From Klenkia marina (GTDB taxonomy: Bacteria; Actinomycetota; Actinomycetes; Mycobacteriales; Geodermatophilaceae), in contig NZ_FMUH01000001.1 in the NCBI RefSeq assembly GCF_900101025.1, positions 496,001 to 560,000 on the forward strand: a stretch of DNA of 64,000 bases, in the 5' to 3' direction. The notes under the pieces are model-generated. The model searched no databases. It had not been told where the DNA came from and saw only the letters and a program-made list of their open reading frames with translations. Both the position numbers and the translations under genes were made by a program. Shown here piece by piece: positions 1,748-11,838 of the stretch. Within the stretch, counting starts at the first letter, position 1, and the number at the start of each line of letters is the position of its first letter.

Positions 1748-3403
<1,656 letters not shown>

Positions 3404-3491
3404 CTAGGCCGGGTGGTGCCCGCGACGGACGGCACCCGCGCCGTGGACGCTCCTGCGGCCCACGCGCCGGTACCTCACCGGTCCGACCTGG

Positions 3492-3518
3492 TTGGCACTC
3501 GGATACCCCGAGTGCCAG
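3492..3518. promoter_or_regulatory. CIRCE operator 1 (HrcA site)
   Basis: TTGGCACTC, 9-base spacer, GAGTGCCAG. The consensus is TTAGCACTC-N9-GAGTGCTAA, so spacing is exact and there are three mismatches in 18 positions. It lies about 120 bases upstream of groEL. Confidence 0.85.
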
Positions 3519-3526
3519 GTACGAGT

Positions 3527-3553
3527 CTGGCACTCGACCCAGGCGAGTGCAAG
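3527..3553. promoter_or_regulatory. CIRCE operator 2 (HrcA site)
   Basis: CTGGCACTC, 9-base spacer, GAGTGCAAG. Same architecture as operator 1, with centres 35 bases apart. Tandem CIRCE elements are expected to give tight HrcA repression of groEL outside heat shock. Confidence 0.8.
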
Positions 3554-3561
3554 AACGGGGG

Positions 3562-4008
3562 TCAGCGCAGCGGACGGCCGCGGTGCCGCCGCCGGGCCGC
3601 GCCGACGACGGCGTCCACCCCGGCGACCACGGGTGCCGCGGCCACCAGCAGCAGGAACCACGGCCACAGGAAGAGGGCCAGCACCCCGAGCAGCGGTCCG
3701 GTGTACGCCGACAGCCCGGCCACCCCCAGCACGTACCAGGTCCACGGCACCACGACGGCGGCGCCGGCGACCGTCGCCGCCCTCCCGGCCCGCGTCTGCG
3801 GGCGGACGCCGAACCGCGGGGTCACCCCGACGACGACGAGCAGCCCGACGACGACCGCCGTCACCCGCCCGCCGAGCGGGTCGTCCTCCCACCCGAGCGC
3901 CAGCAGGACCACCGACACGACCACCAGCACGCCGACCAGCGCCACGTGCGCGACCAGCAGCGCGACCGCCCACGAGCGCGGCCGGTCCACGCCCTCGGGG
4001 TCGGCCAC
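3562..4008 (-). CDS. Small multi-pass membrane protein of unknown function
   Basis: 148 residues with about four hydrophobic segments (around residues 14-37, 48-62, 79-100 and 103-130) and basic ends ([10 protein letters not shown] at the C-terminus). I do not recognise a family. The GTG start gives a short charged N-terminus before the first helix. It follows the epimerase gene by 9 bases on the same strand and so may be the last gene of the exosortase locus. It could equally be an unrelated actinobacterial membrane protein sitting between that operon and groEL. Confidence 0.6.
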   Translation of the reverse strand: MADPEGVDRPRSWAVALLVAHVALVGVLVVVSVVLLALGWEDDPLGGRVTAVVVGLLVVVGVTPRFGVRPQTRAGRAATVAGAAVVVPWTWYVLGVAGLSAYTGPLLGVLALFLWPWFLLLVAAAPVVAGVDAVVGAARRRHRGRPLR

Positions 4009-4017
4009 CCCGCGACG

Positions 4018-5112
4018 CTAGCCCAGCACGGGCACCCGGGCGGCGGTCAGCACGAGGGCGGCGATGCGCTCCCCCGCGTGCCCGTCGCCGAAGGGGCTGC
4101 TCGATCGGGCCAGCTGCTCGGGCCAGCCCGGTCGCAGCAGTCGTGCGGCCGCGTCCTGCACACCGTCGGGACCGGTCAGCACGGCGAAGCCCGCGTCGAC
4201 CGCCTCGGGCCGCTCGGTGCTCCGCCGGACGACGACCAACGGCTTGCCCAGCACGGTGACCTCCTCCTGCACCCCGCCGGAGTCGCTCACCAGGAGACGG
4301 GCACCCGCGGCCAGGGCCAGGAAGGTGGGGTGGTCGACCGGCGCGGTGCAGCGCACCGAGGGCGGGACGACGGCGCCCGTCGCGGCGAGCGCGGCCCGGG
4401 TGCGGGGGTGCAGCGGCAGCAGCACGGGCAGCCCCAGCCCGCCGAGCGCGCGCAGCAGGGCCTGCAGCCGGGCGGGGTCGTCGGTGTTCTCGGGCCGGTG
4501 CACCGTGGCCAGCACGTAGCCGTCGGGGACGACGCCGTAGGCCTCCTGCACGGCGGCCCGCAGGGGTGCTGCGGGCAGGGCCCGGAGGGTGGCCTCGACG
4601 ATGGTGTTCCCCGTGACGTGCACCGCCTCCGGGGGTGCCCCGGCGCGCAGCAGGTGCTCGGCGTTGCCCGCGGTCGCCGCGCAGTGCACGTCGGCGACCG
4701 CTCCGATCACCAGCCGGTTGACCTCCTCGGGCATCGACCGGTCGTGCGAGCGCAGTCCGGCCTCGACGTGCACGACCGGGATGCCCAGGTGGTGGGCGGC
4801 CTGTGCGCCGGCGTTGGCGGAGTTGGTGTCGCCCTGCACGACGACGGCGTCGGGCCGGTCGGAGCGGAACCACTCGGTGAGCCCGGTGAGCATCGCCGCG
4901 ACCTGGCCGGCGCGGTCCCGCCCGCCGATCCCGCGCAGGGGCTGCAGCGGCCGCGGCATGCCCACCCCGGCGAAGAAGACGTCGGTGAGGGCGGCGTCCC
5001 AGTGCTGCCCGGTGGCCAGCGGGCGGGCGGCCGGCCCGAGGGCGGCGACCACCGGCGCGAGCTTGATGATCTCCGGGCGCGTCCCCATCACGACCGCCAC
5101 CCGCGGCGTCAC
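4018..5112 (-). CDS. wecB: UDP-N-acetylglucosamine 2-epimerase (non-hydrolysing)
   Basis: Interconverts UDP-GlcNAc and UDP-ManNAc in the cytosol, feeding ManNAc-type sugars to surface polysaccharide synthesis. The family signature MGTRPEIIKLAPV begins at residue 8, and GQHWD, HVEAGLRSHDRSMPEEVNR, TVHRPENTD and SDSGGVQEE (nucleotide-binding region) follow in the usual order. About 364 residues, normal for WecB/MnaA. I chose the GTG at 5112 because it overlaps the upstream stop (GTGA) and puts the beta-strand RVAVVMGT at the N-terminus; an in-frame start further upstream would add a low-complexity Arg/Gly tail. Its place after the glycosyltransferase and anchored protein suggests it supplies that GT2 system. 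Confidence 0.9.
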   Translation of the reverse strand: MTPRVAVVMGTRPEIIKLAPVVAALGPAARPLATGQHWDAALTDVFFAGVGMPRPLQPLRGIGGRDRAGQVAAMLTGLTEWFRSDRPDAVVVQGDTNSANAGAQAAHHLGIPVVHVEAGLRSHDRSMPEEVNRLVIGAVADVHCAATAGNAEHLLRAGAPPEAVHVTGNTIVEATLRALPAAPLRAAVQEAYGVVPDGYVLATVHRPENTDDPARLQALLRALGGLGLPVLLPLHPRTRAALAATGAVVPPSVRCTAPVDHPTFLALAAGARLLVSDSGGVQEEVTVLGKPLVVVRRSTERPEAVDAGFAVLTGPDGVQDAAARLLRPGWPEQLARSSSPFGDGHAGERIAALVLTAARVPVLG

Positions 5113-5972
5113 GCTGCCCACCCCGCCGCGGGCCGACGGGCGCGCACCCAGCGGGCGGCCAGCACGCCCCACCCGGCCACGACGGCGGCGGCCAGCGCCG
5201 TCCACCCGCTGATCGGCACCGCCGGCACGGGCAGGGTGACCACGTTGAGTCCGCAGCTGGACGTCGCGACGTCCACCCGCACCCCGCCGGTGAGCAGGTT
5301 GACCGTGAGGGCGCCGGCCCGGACGCTGCCGGCGCCCTGCGGCGCGGTCTGCCCGTTGAGCACGAGGGTCGCGACCCCCGGGACGGAGACACCGGCCCCC
5401 ACCGCCGGTGCGGCCGCGAGGGGGATGGTGGTCGGCCCGAGGGCGGTGCTGACCACGACCCGGGCGTTGACCAGCGCCGCCGCCGCCGTGGTGGCCCCGC
5501 TCGAGGACGCCGTGCAGCGGGACGTGATCGCGTCGGCCCGGATGTCCACCGGCAACCCGCCGCCGAGCAGCCGGATCGAGACCCCGCCGCTGCCGTTGAC
5601 GACGGTGCAGCTGCCGTCGGCCCCGATGGTGATGCTGCCCCCGGACCCGACCAGCCCGGAGCAGGCCGCCGAGGTGCCGTCGGCCCGCGCCACGGCCCGC
5701 TGCACGAGGGTGCCCGAGGTGATGAGGGTCTGGGAGCCGAGCACGGTCAGCGCCGGCTGGGGGTCGCCGGTGGTCACGGGGGTCTGGCCGTCGTTGCTGG
5801 CGGCCACGGTGCCCGAGGACGCGGTCGGGTTCCCGTTCGTGGACAGGCCGACCGCGGTGGCCGAGGCCTGCGAGGAATCGGCCAGGGCCGGCCCGGCGCC
5901 GACGACGACGAGTGCGCCCACGAGGGCTGTCACCATGCCCGCGCGGCGGCGCAGGTGCGCGGCGGTGGTCAC
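5109..5972 (-). CDS. Secreted protein with C-terminal membrane-sorting tail (choice-of-anchor type)
   Basis: 287 residues. A Sec signal peptide (RRRAGMVTALVGALVVVGAGPALA) should be cleaved near residue 31. The mature part is Ala/Gly/Ser/Thr-rich beta-type sequence with four or more cysteines (for example AACSGL, GSCTVV, SRCTAS, SSCGLN). The end is tripartite: a short motif PISGW at 253-257, a hydrophobic span at about 258-274, then RWVRARR. That layout is how exosortase and sortase substrates are marked. It resembles actinobacterial 'choice-of-anchor P' proteins from memory. The gene overlaps its neighbours by 4 bases on both sides, three genes from the exosortase start, so it is the likely substrate. 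Function of the mature domain is unknown. Confidence 0.75.
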   Translation of the reverse strand: MTTAAHLRRRAGMVTALVGALVVVGAGPALADSSQASATAVGLSTNGNPTASSGTVAASNDGQTPVTTGDPQPALTVLGSQTLITSGTLVQRAVARADGTSAACSGLVGSGGSITIGADGSCTVVNGSGGVSIRLLGGGLPVDIRADAITSRCTASSSGATTAAAALVNARVVVSTALGPTTIPLAAAPAVGAGVSVPGVATLVLNGQTAPQGAGSVRAGALTVNLLTGGVRVDVATSSCGLNVVTLPVPAVPISGWTALAAAVVAGWGVLAARWVRARRPAAGWAA

Positions 5973-7759
5973 GACGGCGGCTCCTCGTCGGGTCGGGGGA
6001 CGGCGGGGCGGGCGGGTGGCCACGGGGCGGCCGGGCGGGAGGTGAGGACGCGCGGGATGCGCGCGGTGGCCGGGCCGTCGACGACGTCGGGCGCCGGTCC
6101 TGCGGCCGGGGCCACCATGGACGTCACCACGGACGGCGGCACGGACGTCGGCACGGACGTCGGCACGGACGGCGACACGGACGGCGGCGCGGGTGCGGCT
6201 GCCCGCGGCGGCACGGGCCGGGGACGGCTCGTCGGTGCGGCGGTCGGCGGGTCGGCCACCAGCACGCCGGTGGCCGACGCGGGCGTCCGCGCGACCACCG
6301 GCGGCTCGGCGGGCCAGGCCTCGGTCGACGGCGGCGCGGCGTAGAGCGCCGGCTGGTCGCGCCTCGGGGCGCGACCCGGCGGCGGCAGGTCGGGCCGCCC
6401 GGCGCCCGGCACCGCGTGGGTGGTCTTCTTCCAGTCCCGCCGGCCCCGCAGGATCCGGGTGAAGGCCCACCAGACGGCGATCTGCAGCAGGTAGGCGTAG
6501 ACGACGTTGAGCAGACCGAGCGCGACCGCCCGGCGGCGGGTGACGGAGCCACCGGTGCGGGCGCGGTACACCGGACCCCACACGACGTGCGGCAGCACGC
6601 CGAAGAGCGCGGCGAGGGGCACCAGCCCCCACGCGCCACCGGACCACCAGCTGCCGACGCCGTCGCCGGTGTGCGTCATGTACCAGACCTGCACGGCCAT
6701 GGCCGCCGGGAAGACGACCGAACCGAGCAGCTGGGACCACGGCACCCACAGGTAGTAGGCGATCTCCAGCGCCCCGGGCAGGCTGACCTGCGGCGAGCAG
6801 ACGATGCGCCACAGGTACTGCAGGCACTGCATGCTGCCCTGCGCCCACCGGCTGCGCTGGCGCAGCAGCGGGCGGACCCGCGGCAGGCCGGTCTGGGCCA
6901 CGAACGACTCGTCGCAGTACTCCGTGCGCGAGCCGGTCAGCAGCACGTGCAGGCCGAGCTCGAAGTCCTCGAGCAGCGCGCCGTGCCACGGGGTGCCGAA
7001 CTCGTCGGCGATGCGGTCCAGGGCCGACAGCCTCGTGAACTGGCCGTTGCCGCCCATGCCGACGCTGCCGGTGCGTCGGCGCAGGCTCTGCATCGCCGCG
7101 ATCGGCCCGGTGAACTCGAGGTCCTGCAGCTGGACCAGCCAGGTGTCCCGCCGGCGCACGGGCCGGTCGACCGCCTCGACCAGGCTGGCGAGGTCGGCGG
7201 CGGCCAGGCCGTCCACGTCGTCGGTCACCCGGACCTGCAGCTGGACCGCGGCCACCCGCGGGTCCACCAGGTACCCGCACAGCACGTCGGGGGCCAGCCG
7301 CTCGAGGCGCGCGTCGGCGTCCAGCACGCCGACGACCACCCGGTGCCGGTCGGCACCGGGCGGCAGGGCGGCCCCGATGGCGGCCCAGGCGGCGTTCAGC
7401 GCCGCGCCCTTGCCGCGGCGGGCGTCGGGGGCGCGCCGGGTGATCACCCGCAGCTGCGGGAACTGGTCGACCAGGTCGGCCAGGACGTCGGGGGTGAGGT
7501 CGGTGGAGCCGTCGTCGACCACCCACACCGTGGTCTCGGGGAAGGTGCCGAGCAGGTGCCGGACGGTCGCGCCGACGACGAGCTCCTCGTCCAGGCAGGG
7601 CACGACGAGGTGGACGTCGTACCCGGCCCGGCTGCCCGGCACCCCGTCGGCGCGGGCCAGGAACGGCCGCATGATGAACACGACGTAGAGCAGGAAGCTG
7701 ACGCACAGCAGGAACGCCGTGGTGTTGAGGGCCGCCAGCGCCAGGTTGTCGGCGTTCAC
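5969..7759 (-). CDS. Membrane family 2 glycosyltransferase with disordered C-terminal tail
   Basis: About 596 residues. One N-terminal membrane helix (residues 8-30) precedes a GT-A domain: VVDDGS near 80, the metal-binding DAD at 147-149, EDFELG at about 264 (catalytic Asp region) and QRSRW at 301-305, the Q/RxxRW motif of processive synthases of the BcsA/HasA/NodC type. Four or more membrane helices follow (about 325-430). The last 150 residues are Pro/Ala/Thr/Arg-rich with no predicted fold. It should polymerise a nucleotide sugar and pass the chain across the membrane; the sugar is not known. The GTG start overlaps the exosortase stop (GTGA). The nearby UDP-GlcNAc 2-epimerase suggests HexNAc substrates. 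Confidence 0.85.
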   Translation of the reverse strand: MNADNLALAALNTTAFLLCVSFLLYVVFIMRPFLARADGVPGSRAGYDVHLVVPCLDEELVVGATVRHLLGTFPETTVWVVDDGSTDLTPDVLADLVDQFPQLRVITRRAPDARRGKGAALNAAWAAIGAALPPGADRHRVVVGVLDADARLERLAPDVLCGYLVDPRVAAVQLQVRVTDDVDGLAAADLASLVEAVDRPVRRRDTWLVQLQDLEFTGPIAAMQSLRRRTGSVGMGGNGQFTRLSALDRIADEFGTPWHGALLEDFELGLHVLLTGSRTEYCDESFVAQTGLPRVRPLLRQRSRWAQGSMQCLQYLWRIVCSPQVSLPGALEIAYYLWVPWSQLLGSVVFPAAMAVQVWYMTHTGDGVGSWWSGGAWGLVPLAALFGVLPHVVWGPVYRARTGGSVTRRRAVALGLLNVVYAYLLQIAVWWAFTRILRGRRDWKKTTHAVPGAGRPDLPPPGRAPRRDQPALYAAPPSTEAWPAEPPVVARTPASATGVLVADPPTAAPTSRPRPVPPRAAAPAPPSVSPSVPTSVPTSVPPSVVTSMVAPAAGPAPDVVDGPATARIPRVLTSRPAAPWPPARPAVPRPDEEPPS

Positions 7760-8349
7760 CGCCGTCCCACGCCCGGGCCGTGCGGCTGCGTGACCGGGTA
7801 GGTGCCGCGCAGCAGCACGAGCAGGAAGCAGCTGCCGGCGGCCACGACGCCCACGGTGCTCACCGCGGTCCCCACGAGCACGTGCGTGCGCCCGTAGCCG
7901 TCCTCGGGCCCCCAGGCCTCCATGCCGGCGATGATCGCCAGCACCCGGGCCTGGTTGACCGCCAGGACGACGACGACCGCGGCGGCCAGCGAGGCGAAGG
8001 CGCGCGGCGCCGGGATCCGCCGCACGGCCAGCAGCACGGTGGTGGCCGCGACGAAGGGCAGCAGCAGGAACGCCGCCGTGCAGCCGATGGTGATGTCGAC
8101 CCCGGTCGGCTGGCCGGCGACGGTGAACAGCACCGAGCGACCCACCTGCCGGGCGTCCTCCAGCCCGATGAGGCGGGCCAGCGGCACCGTCGCAGCGGCC
8201 TCCAGCTGCTGCAGCCGGCCGGCCCCCACCAGCATCAGCACGAGGGTGACCACGCCGCCGGCGACCATGCCCGGGCGGACCAGCCCGACGTCGGGGGCGC
8301 CGTCGGGCTCGGCGGCCAGCAGGTAAGTGCCCGGGGCGGCGGCCGTCAC
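7756..8349 (-). CDS. Exosortase/archaeosortase-family protein (XrtP-like)
   Basis: A 197-residue membrane protein with about five to six hydrophobic segments. Three residues conserved in exosortases occur in order and in the right context: Cys90 in TIGCTAAFLLLPF, Arg135 in NQARVLAII, and His156 in GRTHVLVG. These proteins cut a C-terminal sorting signal and transfer the product to an acceptor at the outer membrane face. It is shorter than proteobacterial EpsH/XrtA, in line with compact actinobacterial exosortases; I recall an actinobacterial class called exosortase P but cannot confirm membership. GTGA overlaps join it to the GAF/GGDEF-like gene upstream and the GT2 gene downstream, and a protein with a fitting tail is encoded two genes on. 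Confidence 0.82.
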   Translation of the reverse strand: MTAAAPGTYLLAAEPDGAPDVGLVRPGMVAGGVVTLVLMLVGAGRLQQLEAAATVPLARLIGLEDARQVGRSVLFTVAGQPTGVDITIGCTAAFLLLPFVAATTVLLAVRRIPAPRAFASLAAAVVVVLAVNQARVLAIIAGMEAWGPEDGYGRTHVLVGTAVSTVGVVAAGSCFLLVLLRGTYPVTQPHGPGVGRR

Positions 8350-9419
8350 CGGCCCAGCGCCTGGTCGCGGCGGGCGACGACGAGGGCGTTCTCCGCCCGG
8401 GCCCAGGTCGTGGACAGCGGCTCGAGCCCGGCGCGCATGGTGTGCGCGGTCGCCGTCCGGAAGCCGGCGCCCTCCAGGCGGGCCTGGACGAGGTTCGCCG
8501 TCCGGGCGACCTGCGAGGTCTGGTGGCCACCGGCCAGGATGCCGAGCTGGCGCGGGCCCGTGCGGGCCAGCTGCACCGCGCCGACGGCCTCCCGGGCCAC
8601 CCCGATCGCCTTGCGCAACGAGCGCACGGTGCGCACCACGCCGAGGTCGACCAGGGCCAGGCCCACCGGGTCGCCGACGGGGGTGGCGAGCCGCTCCTCG
8701 GTGGCCAGCAGCATGGCCCAGCCCCGCCGGTCCGGCAGCCGGGTCACGTCGTCGTGGCTGGTCAGGCTGCGCTGGAAGCTCTCGGCGCGCTGGTCGGCCA
8801 GCCCGGCGATGTCGGCACTGAGGGAGGCCTGCAGTGCGGTGGCCTGCACGGCGAGCAGGTCCGACCAGTTGCGCTCGGCGGTGTCCAGGGGCTGGGCGCT
8901 GAACCCGGCGAGCGAGCCCAGCGGGCTGCCGTCGGGGGCCAGCAGCGCGATGCCGAGGTACCCGCGCAGCCCCCATCCGTCGGCGATCCGGCGCAGGTCG
9001 GGCACCGGGCTCGCGGCCAGGTCCGGCACGGTGATCGGCTGCGGCCCGACGAGCAGGTGGTGGCAGAGCGAGCGGTCCCGGGCCACCGGGGTGCCTGCGC
9101 TGTACTGCCCCGCCCGGGTGCCCGACCACGTCGAGCCCGGCGCGACGGCTCGGGAGGTCTGCTGCAGCGCCAGGCCGGTCCAGGTGTCCTCGGTGAGGCG
9201 GGTGACCGTCCAGGCGTCGACGCCGCCGAGGCTGCCGAGCAGGGCGAGTGCGGCGTCGGCCCCCGGCAGGGTGCCGCGCGACCAGACGGCGGCCGGCCCG
9301 GGCAGCGACACCGCCGAGCGCGTGTCCAGCACCTGCACCGCCGGGGCGGACACGAGGTCGTCGTCCCACCCGCCCGTGCTGCCGGCCCCCCGGTTCGAGG
9401 CCTCCACCTGCCACGCCAT
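8346..9419 (-). CDS. GAF domain plus degenerate GGDEF domain protein (first paralogue)
   Basis: About 357 residues, cytosolic. Residues 45-195 resemble a GAF sensor fold. Residues 220-350 follow the diguanylate-cyclase fold, starting with the typical LPDRRGW (228-234). Where an active enzyme has GGDEF, this one reads GPRQL (288-292), so c-di-GMP synthesis is not expected; a sensory or scaffolding role is more likely. I chose the ATG at 9419 rather than 9443 because GGGGTGGCGG lies just upstream and because the distance to the shared motif TCCGGAACTGA then matches the paralogue. Its stop overlaps the exosortase start, so it is probably co-translated with that system. Confidence 0.7.
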   Translation of the reverse strand: MAWQVEASNRGAGSTGGWDDDLVSAPAVQVLDTRSAVSLPGPAAVWSRGTLPGADAALALLGSLGGVDAWTVTRLTEDTWTGLALQQTSRAVAPGSTWSGTRAGQYSAGTPVARDRSLCHHLLVGPQPITVPDLAASPVPDLRRIADGWGLRGYLGIALLAPDGSPLGSLAGFSAQPLDTAERNWSDLLAVQATALQASLSADIAGLADQRAESFQRSLTSHDDVTRLPDRRGWAMLLATEERLATPVGDPVGLALVDLGVVRTVRSLRKAIGVAREAVGAVQLARTGPRQLGILAGGHQTSQVARTANLVQARLEGAGFRTATAHTMRAGLEPLSTTWARAENALVVARRDQALGR

Positions 9420-9442
9420 TCCGCCACCCCGTATCGCGCACA

Positions 9443-9453
9443 TCAGTTCCGGA
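9443..9453 (-). promoter_or_regulatory. Shared upstream motif TCCGGAACTGA, copy 1
   Basis: Read on the minus strand, the 11-mer TCCGGAACTGA lies 23 bases before the chosen ATG of the GAF/GGDEF-like gene. The same 11-mer is found before its paralogue at 10466-10476. It could be part of a promoter or an operator shared by the two genes, or a remnant of the duplication. Confidence 0.45.
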
Positions 9454-9516
9454 TCGTCATCGCCCTTTATCGGCAGCGATCCGGGTCGGTGCGACCACGT
9501 CGCCCCGGGACGGCGC

Positions 9517-10440
9517 TCAGCCCACCCCGGCCCGCACCGTGACCAGGGCGTCCTCGGCCCGCCACCAGGTGGCCGCGGCACCCTCACCCGGCCTCCGGGC
9601 GGCCCACCCGCTCGTCGCCGGGTAGCCCGCGGCACGCAGGGCCTCCTGCGCCGCCGTCGCGACGGTCGCGGGGTGCCCACCGGCGGTCTCCCCGACCACC
9701 ACCCCGAACCGGCGGTGACCCACCCGGCAGACCAGGTCCTCCCCGAGCGCCTCCCCGAGCACCTGACCGGCCCGCCGGACGCCGCGCACGGTGCGCACCA
9801 GCCCGACGTCGACCAGCACGACCGCCAGCTCCTCGCCCAGCTGCCGGCCGCGCAGGTCCTCCTCCTGCAGCAGCGCGGCCCACCCGCGACGGTCGGGCAG
9901 ACCGGTCGCGTCGACCGACGTCGCCCGGGCCAACTCGTACGCCGCCCGGCGCTCGTCGGCGGCCGCGGCGAGCGCCCGGCCCAGCCGTCGTCCGAGGTCG
10001 TCGGCGGCGGCGGCGAGCAGCGGCAGGAGATCGAGGGCGCCCGCGCCGTCGTAGCGGTCGCCGGAGTAGCCGCAGACGCTGCCCAGCCGTTGCCCGTCGG
10101 GCCCCCGCAGGGCGGCGCCCACGTAGCCGGCCACCCCGTGCTGGGCCGCGACCGACCGCAGCGCCCGGTCCGGGTGCCCGTGCAGATCGGTCACCACGAC
10201 CGGGCCGCGGTCCACCAGCAGGTGGTGGCAGGCCGTGCGGGCGACCGGTACCCGTCGGCCGACCGGGCTGGGCCGACCGGCGGCCCGCGCCGCCAAGCCG
10301 GTCCAGGACCGGTCGGTCATCCGACTGACGGCCACGACGCCGAAGGGCTGGACCGCGGCCAACCCGCCGACCGCCGCCGCAGCTGCCGCGGCGAACTCGG
10401 CGGCCGACGGTGACGCGCCGGTCCCCGGGGCGCTGCTCAT
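9517..10440 (-). CDS. GAF domain plus degenerate GGDEF domain protein (second paralogue)
   Basis: 307 residues, clearly related to the neighbour at 8346-9419: shared CHHLLV, LPDRRGW, LVRTVR and a matching layout. An Ala-rich N-terminus leads into a GAF-like domain (about 25-150), then a helix and a GGDEF-like fold (about 170-300). The catalytic motif is replaced by GHRRF (241-245), so cyclase activity is unlikely. The ATG has GGGAGG a few bases upstream. It is followed by about 100 bases before the next gene, where the duplicated TCCGGAACTGA motif sits, so the two paralogues may be transcribed separately. Signal sensed is unknown. Confidence 0.68.
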   Translation of the reverse strand: MSSAPGTGASPSAAEFAAAAAAAVGGLAAVQPFGVVAVSRMTDRSWTGLAARAAGRPSPVGRRVPVARTACHHLLVDRGPVVVTDLHGHPDRALRSVAAQHGVAGYVGAALRGPDGQRLGSVCGYSGDRYDGAGALDLLPLLAAAADDLGRRLGRALAAAADERRAAYELARATSVDATGLPDRRGWAALLQEEDLRGRQLGEELAVVLVDVGLVRTVRGVRRAGQVLGEALGEDLVCRVGHRRFGVVVGETAGGHPATVATAAQEALRAAGYPATSGWAARRPGEGAAATWWRAEDALVTVRAGVG

Positions 10441-10465
10441 CGATCCTCCCGCACTTCGGTCCGAT

Positions 10466-10476
10466 TCAGTTCCGGA
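10466..10476 (-). promoter_or_regulatory. Shared upstream motif TCCGGAACTGA, copy 2
   Basis: Same 11-mer as at 9443-9453, here about 25 bases before the ATG of the second GAF/GGDEF-like paralogue. The flanking bases differ between the two copies, so the motif itself has been kept. Confidence 0.45.
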
Positions 10477-10523
10477 CGAGTACGTTCTACATCGACGGCG
10501 TTCCGTAAGGCTTGAGCCGGGGG

Positions 10524-10552
10524 CCCCGGTGCCCCCTCCGGGGGAGCCGGGG
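10524..10552 (-). terminator. Terminator hairpin after thrC
   Basis: Arms CCCCGGTGCCCCC (10524-10536) and GGGGGAGCCGGGG (10540-10552) pair with two mismatches around a 3-base loop, directly after the thrC stop. It separates thrC from the GAF/GGDEF-like genes. Confidence 0.65.
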
Positions 10553-10560
10553 CCGCCCGC

Positions 10561-11838
10561 TCAGGCGATGAGCCCCGCCTGCCGCAGCGAGCGCAGCGAG
10601 GGCTCGACCCGGTGGGTCGGGCCGACCACGGGGGCCAGTGGGTCGAGGGTCTTCAGGCCCTCGCCGGTGTTGAGGACCACGGTCTCGGCCGCGGGGTCGA
10701 GCAGTCCGCGCTCGACCAGCTGGCGCAGCACGGCGGTGGTCACCCCGCCCGCGGTCTCGGCGAAGACCCCCGTGGTGCGGGCCAGGTCGCGGATGCCGGC
10801 CACGATCTCGTCGTCGCCGACCCGGCCCACGGACCCACCCGTGCGGCGGATGGCGTCGAGGGCGTAGGGGCCGTCGGCGGGGTTGCCGATGTTGAGCGAC
10901 TTCGCGATGCCGGTCGGCTTGACCGGCTTCACGACGTCCCAGCCGTTGTCGAACGCGGTCGCGATCGGGTCGCAGCCGGCCGACTGCGCGCCGAACACCT
11001 TCCACGGGGTGTCCTCGACGATGCCGGCGGCCACGAGCTCCTTCCAGGCCTTGTCGACCTTGGTGAGCAGCGAGCCCGACGCCATCGGGATGACCACCTG
11101 GGCCGGGATGCGCCAGCCCAGCTGCTCGGCGATCTCGTAGCCGACGGTCTTGGAGCCCTCGGCGTAGTAGGGCCGCACGTTCTGGTTGACGAACGCGGCG
11201 TCCTCGAACTCGTCGGTCTCGGCCAGCTCGCTGGTGAGCCGGTTGACCTCGTCGTAGGAGCCGTCGACGGCGATGAGCGCTTGGCCGTAGACCGCCGACT
11301 GCACGATCTTGCCCGGCTCGAGGTCGCTGGGCACGAACACGTAGGAGGGCAGGCCGTTGCGGGCGGCGTGCGCGGCCACCGAGTTGGCCAGGTTGCCGGT
11401 CGAGGCGCAGGCGATCTTGGTGTAGCCGAAACCCTTGGCCGCCGTGGCCGCCAGGCTCACCACGCGGTCCTTGAACGAGTGCGTGGGGTTGGCCGAGTCG
11501 TCCTTGACCCACAGCGGGGCGGTGAAGCCCAGCTCGTCGCCGAGGCGCTGCGCGCGCACCAGCGGGGTCATGCCGGGGTCGAGGCTGACCCGGGACGCCG
11601 GGTCCTGGCCGGTGGGCAGCAGCGGCGCGTAGCGCCAGATGTTCTGCGGGCCGGCCTCGATCTGCTCGCGGGTCACCGCGCGCATGAGCTCGGGGTCGTA
11701 GTCGACCTCGAGCGGGCCGAAGCACTCGGCGCAGGCGTGCTCGGCGATCAGCCCGAAGGTGGCACCGCAGTTGCGGCACACCAGGCCGCGGGCGGGGTTG
11801 GCCGGGACGGCGGTGGGGGCGGGTGCGGTCAGGGTCAT
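10561..11838 (-). CDS. thrC: Threonine synthase
   Basis: 425 residues; converts O-phosphohomoserine to threonine with pyridoxal phosphate in the cytosol. The PLP lysine is in NPTHSFKDR (around residue 120), followed by ACASTGNLANS and SGSLLTK for phosphate binding, and TAGGVTTAV near the C-terminus. An N-terminal zinc-ribbon-like CRNC...CAEC segment is present, as in the longer class of threonine synthases. ATG start with GGAGG 10 bases upstream. It stands alone, without hom or thrB beside it, between a terminator and a divergent phosphatase gene. Confidence 0.95.
   Translation of the reverse strand: MTLTAPAPTAVPANPARGLVCRNCGATFGLIAEHACAECFGPLEVDYDPELMRAVTREQIEAGPQNIWRYAPLLPTGQDPASRVSLDPGMTPLVRAQRLGDELGFTAPLWVKDDSANPTHSFKDRVVSLAATAAKGFGYTKIACASTGNLANSVAAHAARNGLPSYVFVPSDLEPGKIVQSAVYGQALIAVDGSYDEVNRLTSELAETDEFEDAAFVNQNVRPYYAEGSKTVGYEIAEQLGWRIPAQVVIPMASGSLLTKVDKAWKELVAAGIVEDTPWKVFGAQSAGCDPIATAFDNGWDVVKPVKPTGIAKSLNIGNPADGPYALDAIRRTGGSVGRVGDDEIVAGIRDLARTTGVFAETAGGVTTAVLRQLVERGLLDPAAETVVLNTGEGLKTLDPLAPVVGPTHRVEPSLRSLRQAGLIA

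Follow-up and report, generated by a model that had tools for sequence, protein, structure and literature searches.

The PEP-CTERM/EpsH systems of Gram-negative bacteria combine proteins that end in a tripartite tail with an exosortase of conserved catalytic-type residues and with nearby exopolysaccharide (EPS) genes, and tails of this shape have been proposed as exosortase cleavage targets, according to the account in PMC1569441, which gives 1 to 65 such substrates per genome (median 8) and places the Actinomycetes among the lineages that had no PEP-CTERM example at its date. Proteins that depend on exosortases are also stated to hold EPS to cells (PMC12188702). Here we analyze a 64,000-nucleotide stretch of the Klenkia marina genome (positions 496,001 to 560,000 of contig NZ_FMUH01000001.1; hereafter "the window"), which is part of a 1.07-Mb contig in a 4.2-Mb genome and carries, on the minus strand of window positions 4018-10440, a six-gene exosortase cassette that shares these three features and in which one tailed substrate was found. 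The host of this cassette has no outer membrane, unlike the Gram-negative hosts of PEP-CTERM/EpsH. Judging from gene content and conservation, we lean towards the view that the cassette is a self-contained device for displaying one protein together with a glycan.

The nearest named families are those of the XrtP systems defined at NCBI (XrtP, CoaP and the XrtP-associated glycosyltransferase; models NF012139, NF053845, NF040603 and NF053846), in which an exosortase, a family 2 glycosyltransferase (GT2) and a substrate of the choice-of-anchor P type likewise occur close together. The Klenkia cassette differs from them in that it misses all four model cut-offs, includes a UDP-N-acetylglucosamine (UDP-GlcNAc) 2-epimerase gene (wecB) in the same run, and adds a pair of GAF-domain genes with a private upstream element. 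By these comparisons the cassette is a divergent relative of the XrtP/choice-of-anchor-P systems: its parts have named relatives, and what appears to be new is the arrangement of wecB, GAF pair and private element. In the open-access PMC literature we found no paper describing wecB and a sensor pair with such an element as an arrangement, and none dedicated to exosortases in the class Actinomycetes. A survey of archaeosortases and exosortases published in the Journal of Bacteriology in 2012 reportedly introduced names that may cover parts of the cassette.

In order of transcription, the cassette consists of gafA (9517..10440, 307 amino acids) and gafB (8346..9419, about 357 amino acids), both coding for proteins with a GAF and a degenerate GGDEF domain, followed by an exosortase-family membrane protein (7756..8349, 197 amino acids), a GT2 glycosyltransferase with a proline-rich C-terminal extension (5969..7759, 596 amino acids), a secreted protein with a C-terminal sorting tail (5109..5972, 287 amino acids) and a WecB-type epimerase (4018..5112, 364 amino acids). 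Four GTGA overlaps link gafB through wecB, the first of them joining gafB to the exosortase gene. Such 4-base overlaps recur at the successive junctions of seven loci of the same type (type A; types A and B are our own labels), being present in 7/7, 6/7, 4/6 and 6/6 of the cases where both genes are present, and they persist into another genus.

Comparison of the site among nine Klenkia genomes supports the conclusion that the six genes are one unit, present or absent as a whole. In five Klenkia genomes, that of the window included, thrC and groEL flank the complete set of six genes; in a sixth genome, thrC through the GT2 gene are visible up to a contig end, and wecB opens another contig. None of the six genes is found at the site in three further genomes (G083, G078 and G081, the last being 73% complete with its contig ending within groEL), where thrC is followed by groEL. 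Between the two lies a different short gene in G078 and, in G083, a relative of the small membrane gene found next to the cassette in the window (3562-4008); since that gene stays in a genome that has no block, we rejected it as a member. Outside Klenkia, a genome of a different genus (G091) groups wecB, the tailed protein, the GT2, the exosortase and one GAF gene at another location, and the 18 kb read there contains neither thrC nor groEL. A chance neighborhood of unrelated genes is favored by nothing beyond the small Klenkia sample; it is opposed by the all-or-none presence at the site, with no single-gene loss and no scattered single gene there in any of the nine genomes, by the overlaps that persist into another genus and by the family-wide co-occurrence of wecB described below, and we consider it very improbable.

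The exosortase scores 32.1 bits against the general exosortase/archaeosortase model TIGR04178 (cut-off 23), and its Cys90/Arg135/His156 triad is kept in 32/32 full-length homologues. This count is based on 34 profile matches, less two proteins that have no exosortase domain (L059_8 and L062_8), with the gene of locus L055 standing outside it. In the two genomes of the excluded proteins, the C-terminal part of the type B exosortase is apparently fused to the N-terminus of an ATP-grasp protein instead. Filing the window protein as XrtP, XrtR or XrtS was rejected, as every score lies under the respective cut-off (66.3 of 200, 47 of 150 and 55 of 145 bits). Sequence searches for relatives of solved structure returned none for the exosortase or the secreted protein (E up to 1) or for the GT2 (E up to 0.001), and the PHROGs collection gave no match for the exosortase or the tailed protein and one weak unnamed match for gafB. 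From the triad and the tail, the exosortase would be the enzyme that cuts and sorts the C-terminal tail.

The putative substrate has an N-terminal signal sequence, as judged by eye, and orthologues in five further type A loci. Its sorting tail (5112..5246, defined by alignment) consists of a PVPAVP motif, a hydrophobic helix and an arginine cluster. No model recognized the protein above its cut-off, and neither NF040603 (cut-off 27) nor the CoaP tail model NF053845 (cut-off 35) matched it up to E 0.1; a profile-profile comparison (hhalign) aligned its C-terminal half with choice-of-anchor P proteins at 97% and E 1.2e-10, the target being two proteins whose own NF040603 scores are 49.9 and 74.3 bits. 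When a profile of the tail was run over the genome (150 of 210 candidates scored), the cassette protein was found at E 1.2e-19 and the next match at E 0.10, with two further matches at E 0.9 and 1.3. The E 0.10 match (L145) was rejected as a second substrate, since by eye it belongs to a fibronectin-type protein and looks like an LPXTG tail. Within the reach of the tail profile, these results support a single dedicated exosortase substrate for this genome. An earlier note on this DNA, made from the letters and their open reading frames, had proposed the exosortase with its triad, the tripartite tail, the run of GTGA overlaps and a single unit to be sought in related genomes, and the profile search and neighborhood comparison bear these out; it also suggested the names exosortase P and choice-of-anchor P, which are indeed the nearest named families, but the exosortase, the GT2 and the tailed protein all remain under the cut-offs that define them.

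The remaining two enzymes of the run form a candidate polymer pair. The GT2 reaches 467.4 bits against NF053846, under the cut-off of 520, which is passed in 7/394 genomes of the class with the window GT2 next in rank; it scores 58.7 bits against the PgaC model (cut-off 422), matches the GT2 families of Pfam and contains the motifs DAD, LEDFEL and QRSRW. DxD and QxxRW motifs mark processive GT2 synthases. The epimerase passes TIGR00236 with 268.6 bits (cut-off 210) and shows all four of what we take to be the WecB motifs. WecB-type enzymes produce UDP-N-acetylmannosamine (UDP-ManNAc), and the GT2 may use this sugar nucleotide, so that the glycan made by the cassette is probably of N-acetylhexosamine (HexNAc), ManNAc-type, as far as enzyme families can tell. 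The assignment of a GT2 synthase and a UDP-GlcNAc 2-epimerase as a HexNAc-polymer pair, already made in the earlier note, is thereby supported.

To ask how general these associations are, we read 33 exosortase loci: besides that of the window, these comprise 6 of type A, 15 of type B (out of 37 genomes with a type B exosortase) and 11 further ones. Searching 112 family genomes with the window exosortase gave 21 places in 20 genomes, and searching 394 class genomes with TIGR04178 gave 13 places in 12 genomes; the loci derive from these matches. A GT2 with a QRxRW motif occurs in 33/33 loci, wecB in 29/33 and the tailed-protein family in 8/33; by simple patterns searched anywhere in the protein, QRxRW and DAD/DSD are found in all 33 GT2s and EDxxL in 32/33. 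Two of the wecB misses (L040 and L051) are contig ends, and wecB starts another contig in both genomes. At one locus (L063, G147:C77:1-14000, about 2246-4738) GT2 and WecB are fused in one 930-amino-acid frame beside the exosortase.

Among the 112 family genomes, 7 have a type A exosortase and 37 a type B one, with both in 2, including that of the window. An epimerase above cut-off is present in 45/112, which divides into 41/42 genomes with an exosortase and 4/70 others (Fisher 8.5e-25, a value that overstates independence because the genomes are related). wecB lies within 10 kb at 41/44 exosortase places, the three misses being two loci split across contigs (G080 and G002) and one genome (G038) that is 84% complete and has broken frames; conversely, 41/49 wecB copies above cut-off sit at most 10 kb from an exosortase. 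The genome of the window has two wecB copies in all, one per exosortase locus.

That second locus (L056; G000:C7:136000-154000), which lies outside the window, is of type B and is ordered GT2, a 377-amino-acid exosortase, ATP-grasp, wecB, a HAD phosphatase-like gene, two tailed secreted proteins and a PIG-L deacetylase. It shares with the window cassette the exosortase, the GT2, wecB and small tailed secreted proteins, and it differs in an extra C-terminal part of the exosortase, in the ATP-grasp, HAD and PIG-L genes and in a GT2 of another lineage. The nearest named type of its exosortase is XrtS (44 of 145 bits), and matches to it occur in 37/112 family genomes. The PIG-L and ATP-grasp genes would be consistent with synthesis of an acceptor that carries an amine. 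One of its two tailed proteins bears an F5/8 type C domain.

The GT2 and wecB also occur together elsewhere. A search of the 394 class genomes for the same GT2 clade (at least 176 bits) gave 37 places, 9 of them exosortase loci already read; at the other 28, wecB was found in 22 and an exosortase in none within the stretch read (L121, L122, L126 and L127 were scored by six-frame profiles). In the GT2 tree, from which the fused L063 was left out, exosortase-linked GT2s fall at three separate positions with exosortase-free ones between them; types A and B each form a clade (support 100/100 and 97/96), with a warning of long branches. Since the pair persists without an exosortase, it looks like a stand-alone polymer synthase, and the simplest view is that an exosortase and its substrate were added to a GT2-wecB synthase repeatedly, or were kept in scattered lineages. 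Also in keeping with such a synthase, five of ten exosortase-free GT2 loci examined by eye (L105, L106, L109, L112 and L115, with wecB in the last three) carry secreted proteins that we take to be deacetylase-like (DUF2334-like), and four or five also carry presumably LamG-like ones, possibly forming an undescribed exopolysaccharide locus.

The same distribution bears on an alternative in which the exosortase would fix its substrate on a membrane lipid, or set it free, and the product of GT2 and WecB would be an independent exopolysaccharide held non-covalently by the protein. The 22/28 related loci that pair GT2 and wecB without an exosortase imply that the glycan does not need one, the archaeosortase ArtA is believed to work with a lipid (as presented in PMC7157517), and a study of a cyanobacterial exosortase, citing work on other bacteria, describes such proteins as stabilizing surface EPS (PMC12188702). 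Set against this are the lack of a lipid-biosynthesis gene in the window block and the presence of a GT2 at 33/33 exosortase loci, a weak argument given that not every recurring neighbor is annotated. We regard this alternative as possible, though clearly less likely than joint display of protein and glycan by one cassette.

For joint display, ArtA offers an analogy: its neighbors in Methanosarcina include PssA and PssD, which are required for the ArtA reaction in Haloferax and are thought to make the acceptor (as outlined in PMC7157517). Both systems thus pair a sorting enzyme with partners that may make its acceptor, with lipid enzymes there and glycan enzymes here, and it is because PssA/PssD likely make the acceptor that the same logic is suggested for the cassette. 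We picture that WecB would convert UDP-GlcNAc to UDP-ManNAc and the membrane GT2 would polymerize HexNAc into a glycan; the secreted protein would be exported and held by its tail, the exosortase would cut that tail through Cys90/Arg135/His156, and the cut protein would be left at the cell surface with the glycan. The most likely route would be a transfer in which the freshly exposed C-terminus is passed on to the glycan or to the lipid carrying it, and a covalent joining of protein and glycan is a step that we propose only tentatively. The sequences themselves show which genes these are, the invariant residues, the all-or-none presence, the co-occurrence of epimerase and exosortase, a single detectable substrate and the shared upstream element; from these we infer the identity of the polymer, the cleavage, the joining and the regulation. 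The earlier suggestion of an anchored protein made with, or attached to, a HexNAc polymer therefore fares unevenly: the single detectable substrate, the GT2 and epimerase pair and the single unit support it, while joining and control by the GAF proteins stand as conjecture.

Several findings weigh against this picture. The exosortase and the GT2 fall short of the XrtP-type cut-offs, and the window block contains no exporter or deacetylase gene. At two exosortase loci (L058 and L067) the 18 kb read lacks wecB, and at a third (L065) wecB is split over two frames. If matches at E <= 0.001 are counted, wecB is found in 9/70 exosortase-free genomes, where "exosortase-free" means no match to two query proteins, TIGR04178 having covered the class sample and not the family. 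The counts share ancestry, types A and B each being one clade. PEExNR, a WecB motif, is absent in 14/14 type B epimerases, and the HRxEN pattern fits solely 6 type A copies among 29 epimerases, so that the epimerase reaction at loci outside type A is less sure. In addition, 3/16 members of the GAF/pseudo-GGDEF family are found at places other than exosortase loci (G079:C3:59216, G083:C4:2638134 and G077:C8:324419); around these, tblastn with the window exosortase, GT2 and wecB was empty over 19 kb (~9 kb each side).

In Pfam searches the GAF domain of gafB is above cut-off and that of gafA just under it (20.8 against 22.4 bits), with GGDEF at E 0.013 in gafA; gafA aligns with the gafB family and has GHRRF where GGDEF would be. 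A profile search of the PDB found the GAF-GGDEF protein 4zmu (E 2.7e-11), and the predicted structure of gafB is confident, with structural matches to both the GAF and the GGDEF folds. These lines of evidence agree with the earlier recognition of two GAF/degenerate-GGDEF proteins. The family is narrow, having 16 copies of at least 260 bits in the 112 family genomes with the next match at 70 bits, and 13 of the 16 are at type A exosortase loci. The pair thus stands as a component of the Klenkia locus, but it is not constant at actinobacterial exosortase loci, where the family is found at 7/33 (all in Klenkia except for a single copy in a genome of a different genus), and the three copies located elsewhere also count against constancy. 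Exosortase-free GAF matches (L114-L118) were rejected as members of the family: L115, the one that was read, ends by eye in an EAL-like domain and is therefore a different protein.

The described protein most like them is PelD, a GAF and degenerate-GGDEF protein that binds cyclic di-GMP (c-di-GMP) via an RxxD motif and controls a polysaccharide synthase in a Gram-positive operon (as given in PMC7112168). On this precedent, the gaf products, which share the domain pair and the place beside a polysaccharide synthase, could be PelD-like c-di-GMP receptors switching the GT2 on; the model fold of gafB agrees with such a reading, and the 35 GGDEF matches above cut-off in the genome make it likely that c-di-GMP is present. 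However, GGDEF/GGEEF is absent in 13/13 members of the family, being replaced by [GS]-x-R-[QR]-[LFI]-G, and no RxxD occurs within 20 residues before the degenerate motif in 12/13, including both window proteins; the sole exception is an unconserved RAAD in gafA of L042. Nor do the proteins show clear membrane helices as PelD does (none by crude hydropathy in 12/13, with one stretch in the window gafA), and they come in two copies. Canonical control by c-di-GMP is thus unlikely in view of the missing motifs, and we hold the PelD-like switch to be improbable. Within the display cassette, the GAF pair would instead sense a small ligand or a partner and determine when the cassette is active, acting as its gate from the two copies of a private element.

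This element, CGATR-N13/14-TCCGGAAC, is common to six Klenkia genomes upstream of both gafA (CGATR-N13-TCCGGAAC, 10469..10494, minus strand) and gafB (CGATR-N14-TCCGGAAC, 9446..9472, minus strand). In the alignment of the six genomes 10/12 copies are exact and two gafA copies are off by one base. It occurs twice in the window and not once in 100 shuffles of the window, and the exact pattern has 2 sites in the whole genome, both at gaf genes, which therefore appear to have a private control site, whatever its binder. Across 10 genomes, 16 exact matches were found, 10 at gaf promoters and 6 elsewhere, the latter being copies of two sequences, one of them inside an apparent desaturase-like gene; a reversed control pattern gave 0 matches in the same genomes. 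Upstream of gafA a second TCCGGA lies 11 bases on, exact in 2/6 genomes and changed in the others, with sigma-28-like spacing ahead of it. The gafA element resembles what we take to be a sigma-28 promoter (TCAA/TACA-N15-GCCGATA), while by eye the gafB copy has no −35 part. A search for sigma-70 promoters in 3300-10700 found none. Directly after thrC, a GC-rich hairpin (10518..10559, minus strand), seen in a fold with DNA parameters, may insulate the block from thrC; the fold of 10441-10560 has a z of -1.96, with 10/200 shuffles equally good, and a terminator scan did not call the hairpin. Window positions 14000-64000 are by eye mostly housekeeping genes (e.g. cysS, ispD/ispF, radA, disA, clpC, lysS, panC, folate genes, ftsH and tilS).

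Taken more broadly, actinobacterial exosortases could be protein-glycan ligases that join the cleaved protein to a ManNAc-type glycan produced by the GT2 and epimerase of the same locus, the attack being made by an amine on a sugar that has been de-acetylated or aminoacylated, as would be supplied in type B by the neighboring PIG-L deacetylase and ATP-grasp ligase; the window cassette would then be the version with one protein, gated by a GAF pair whose signal is not c-di-GMP bound at the usual site. We offer this as a speculative proposal, one we would sooner doubt than adopt. What the counts indicate for the family is that UDP-GlcNAc 2-epimerase is almost entirely an exosortase partner. For the question of which acceptor bacterial exosortases use, the cassette is a compact and testable case: it brings together a single detectable substrate, a single polymerase and one of only two epimerases in the genome.

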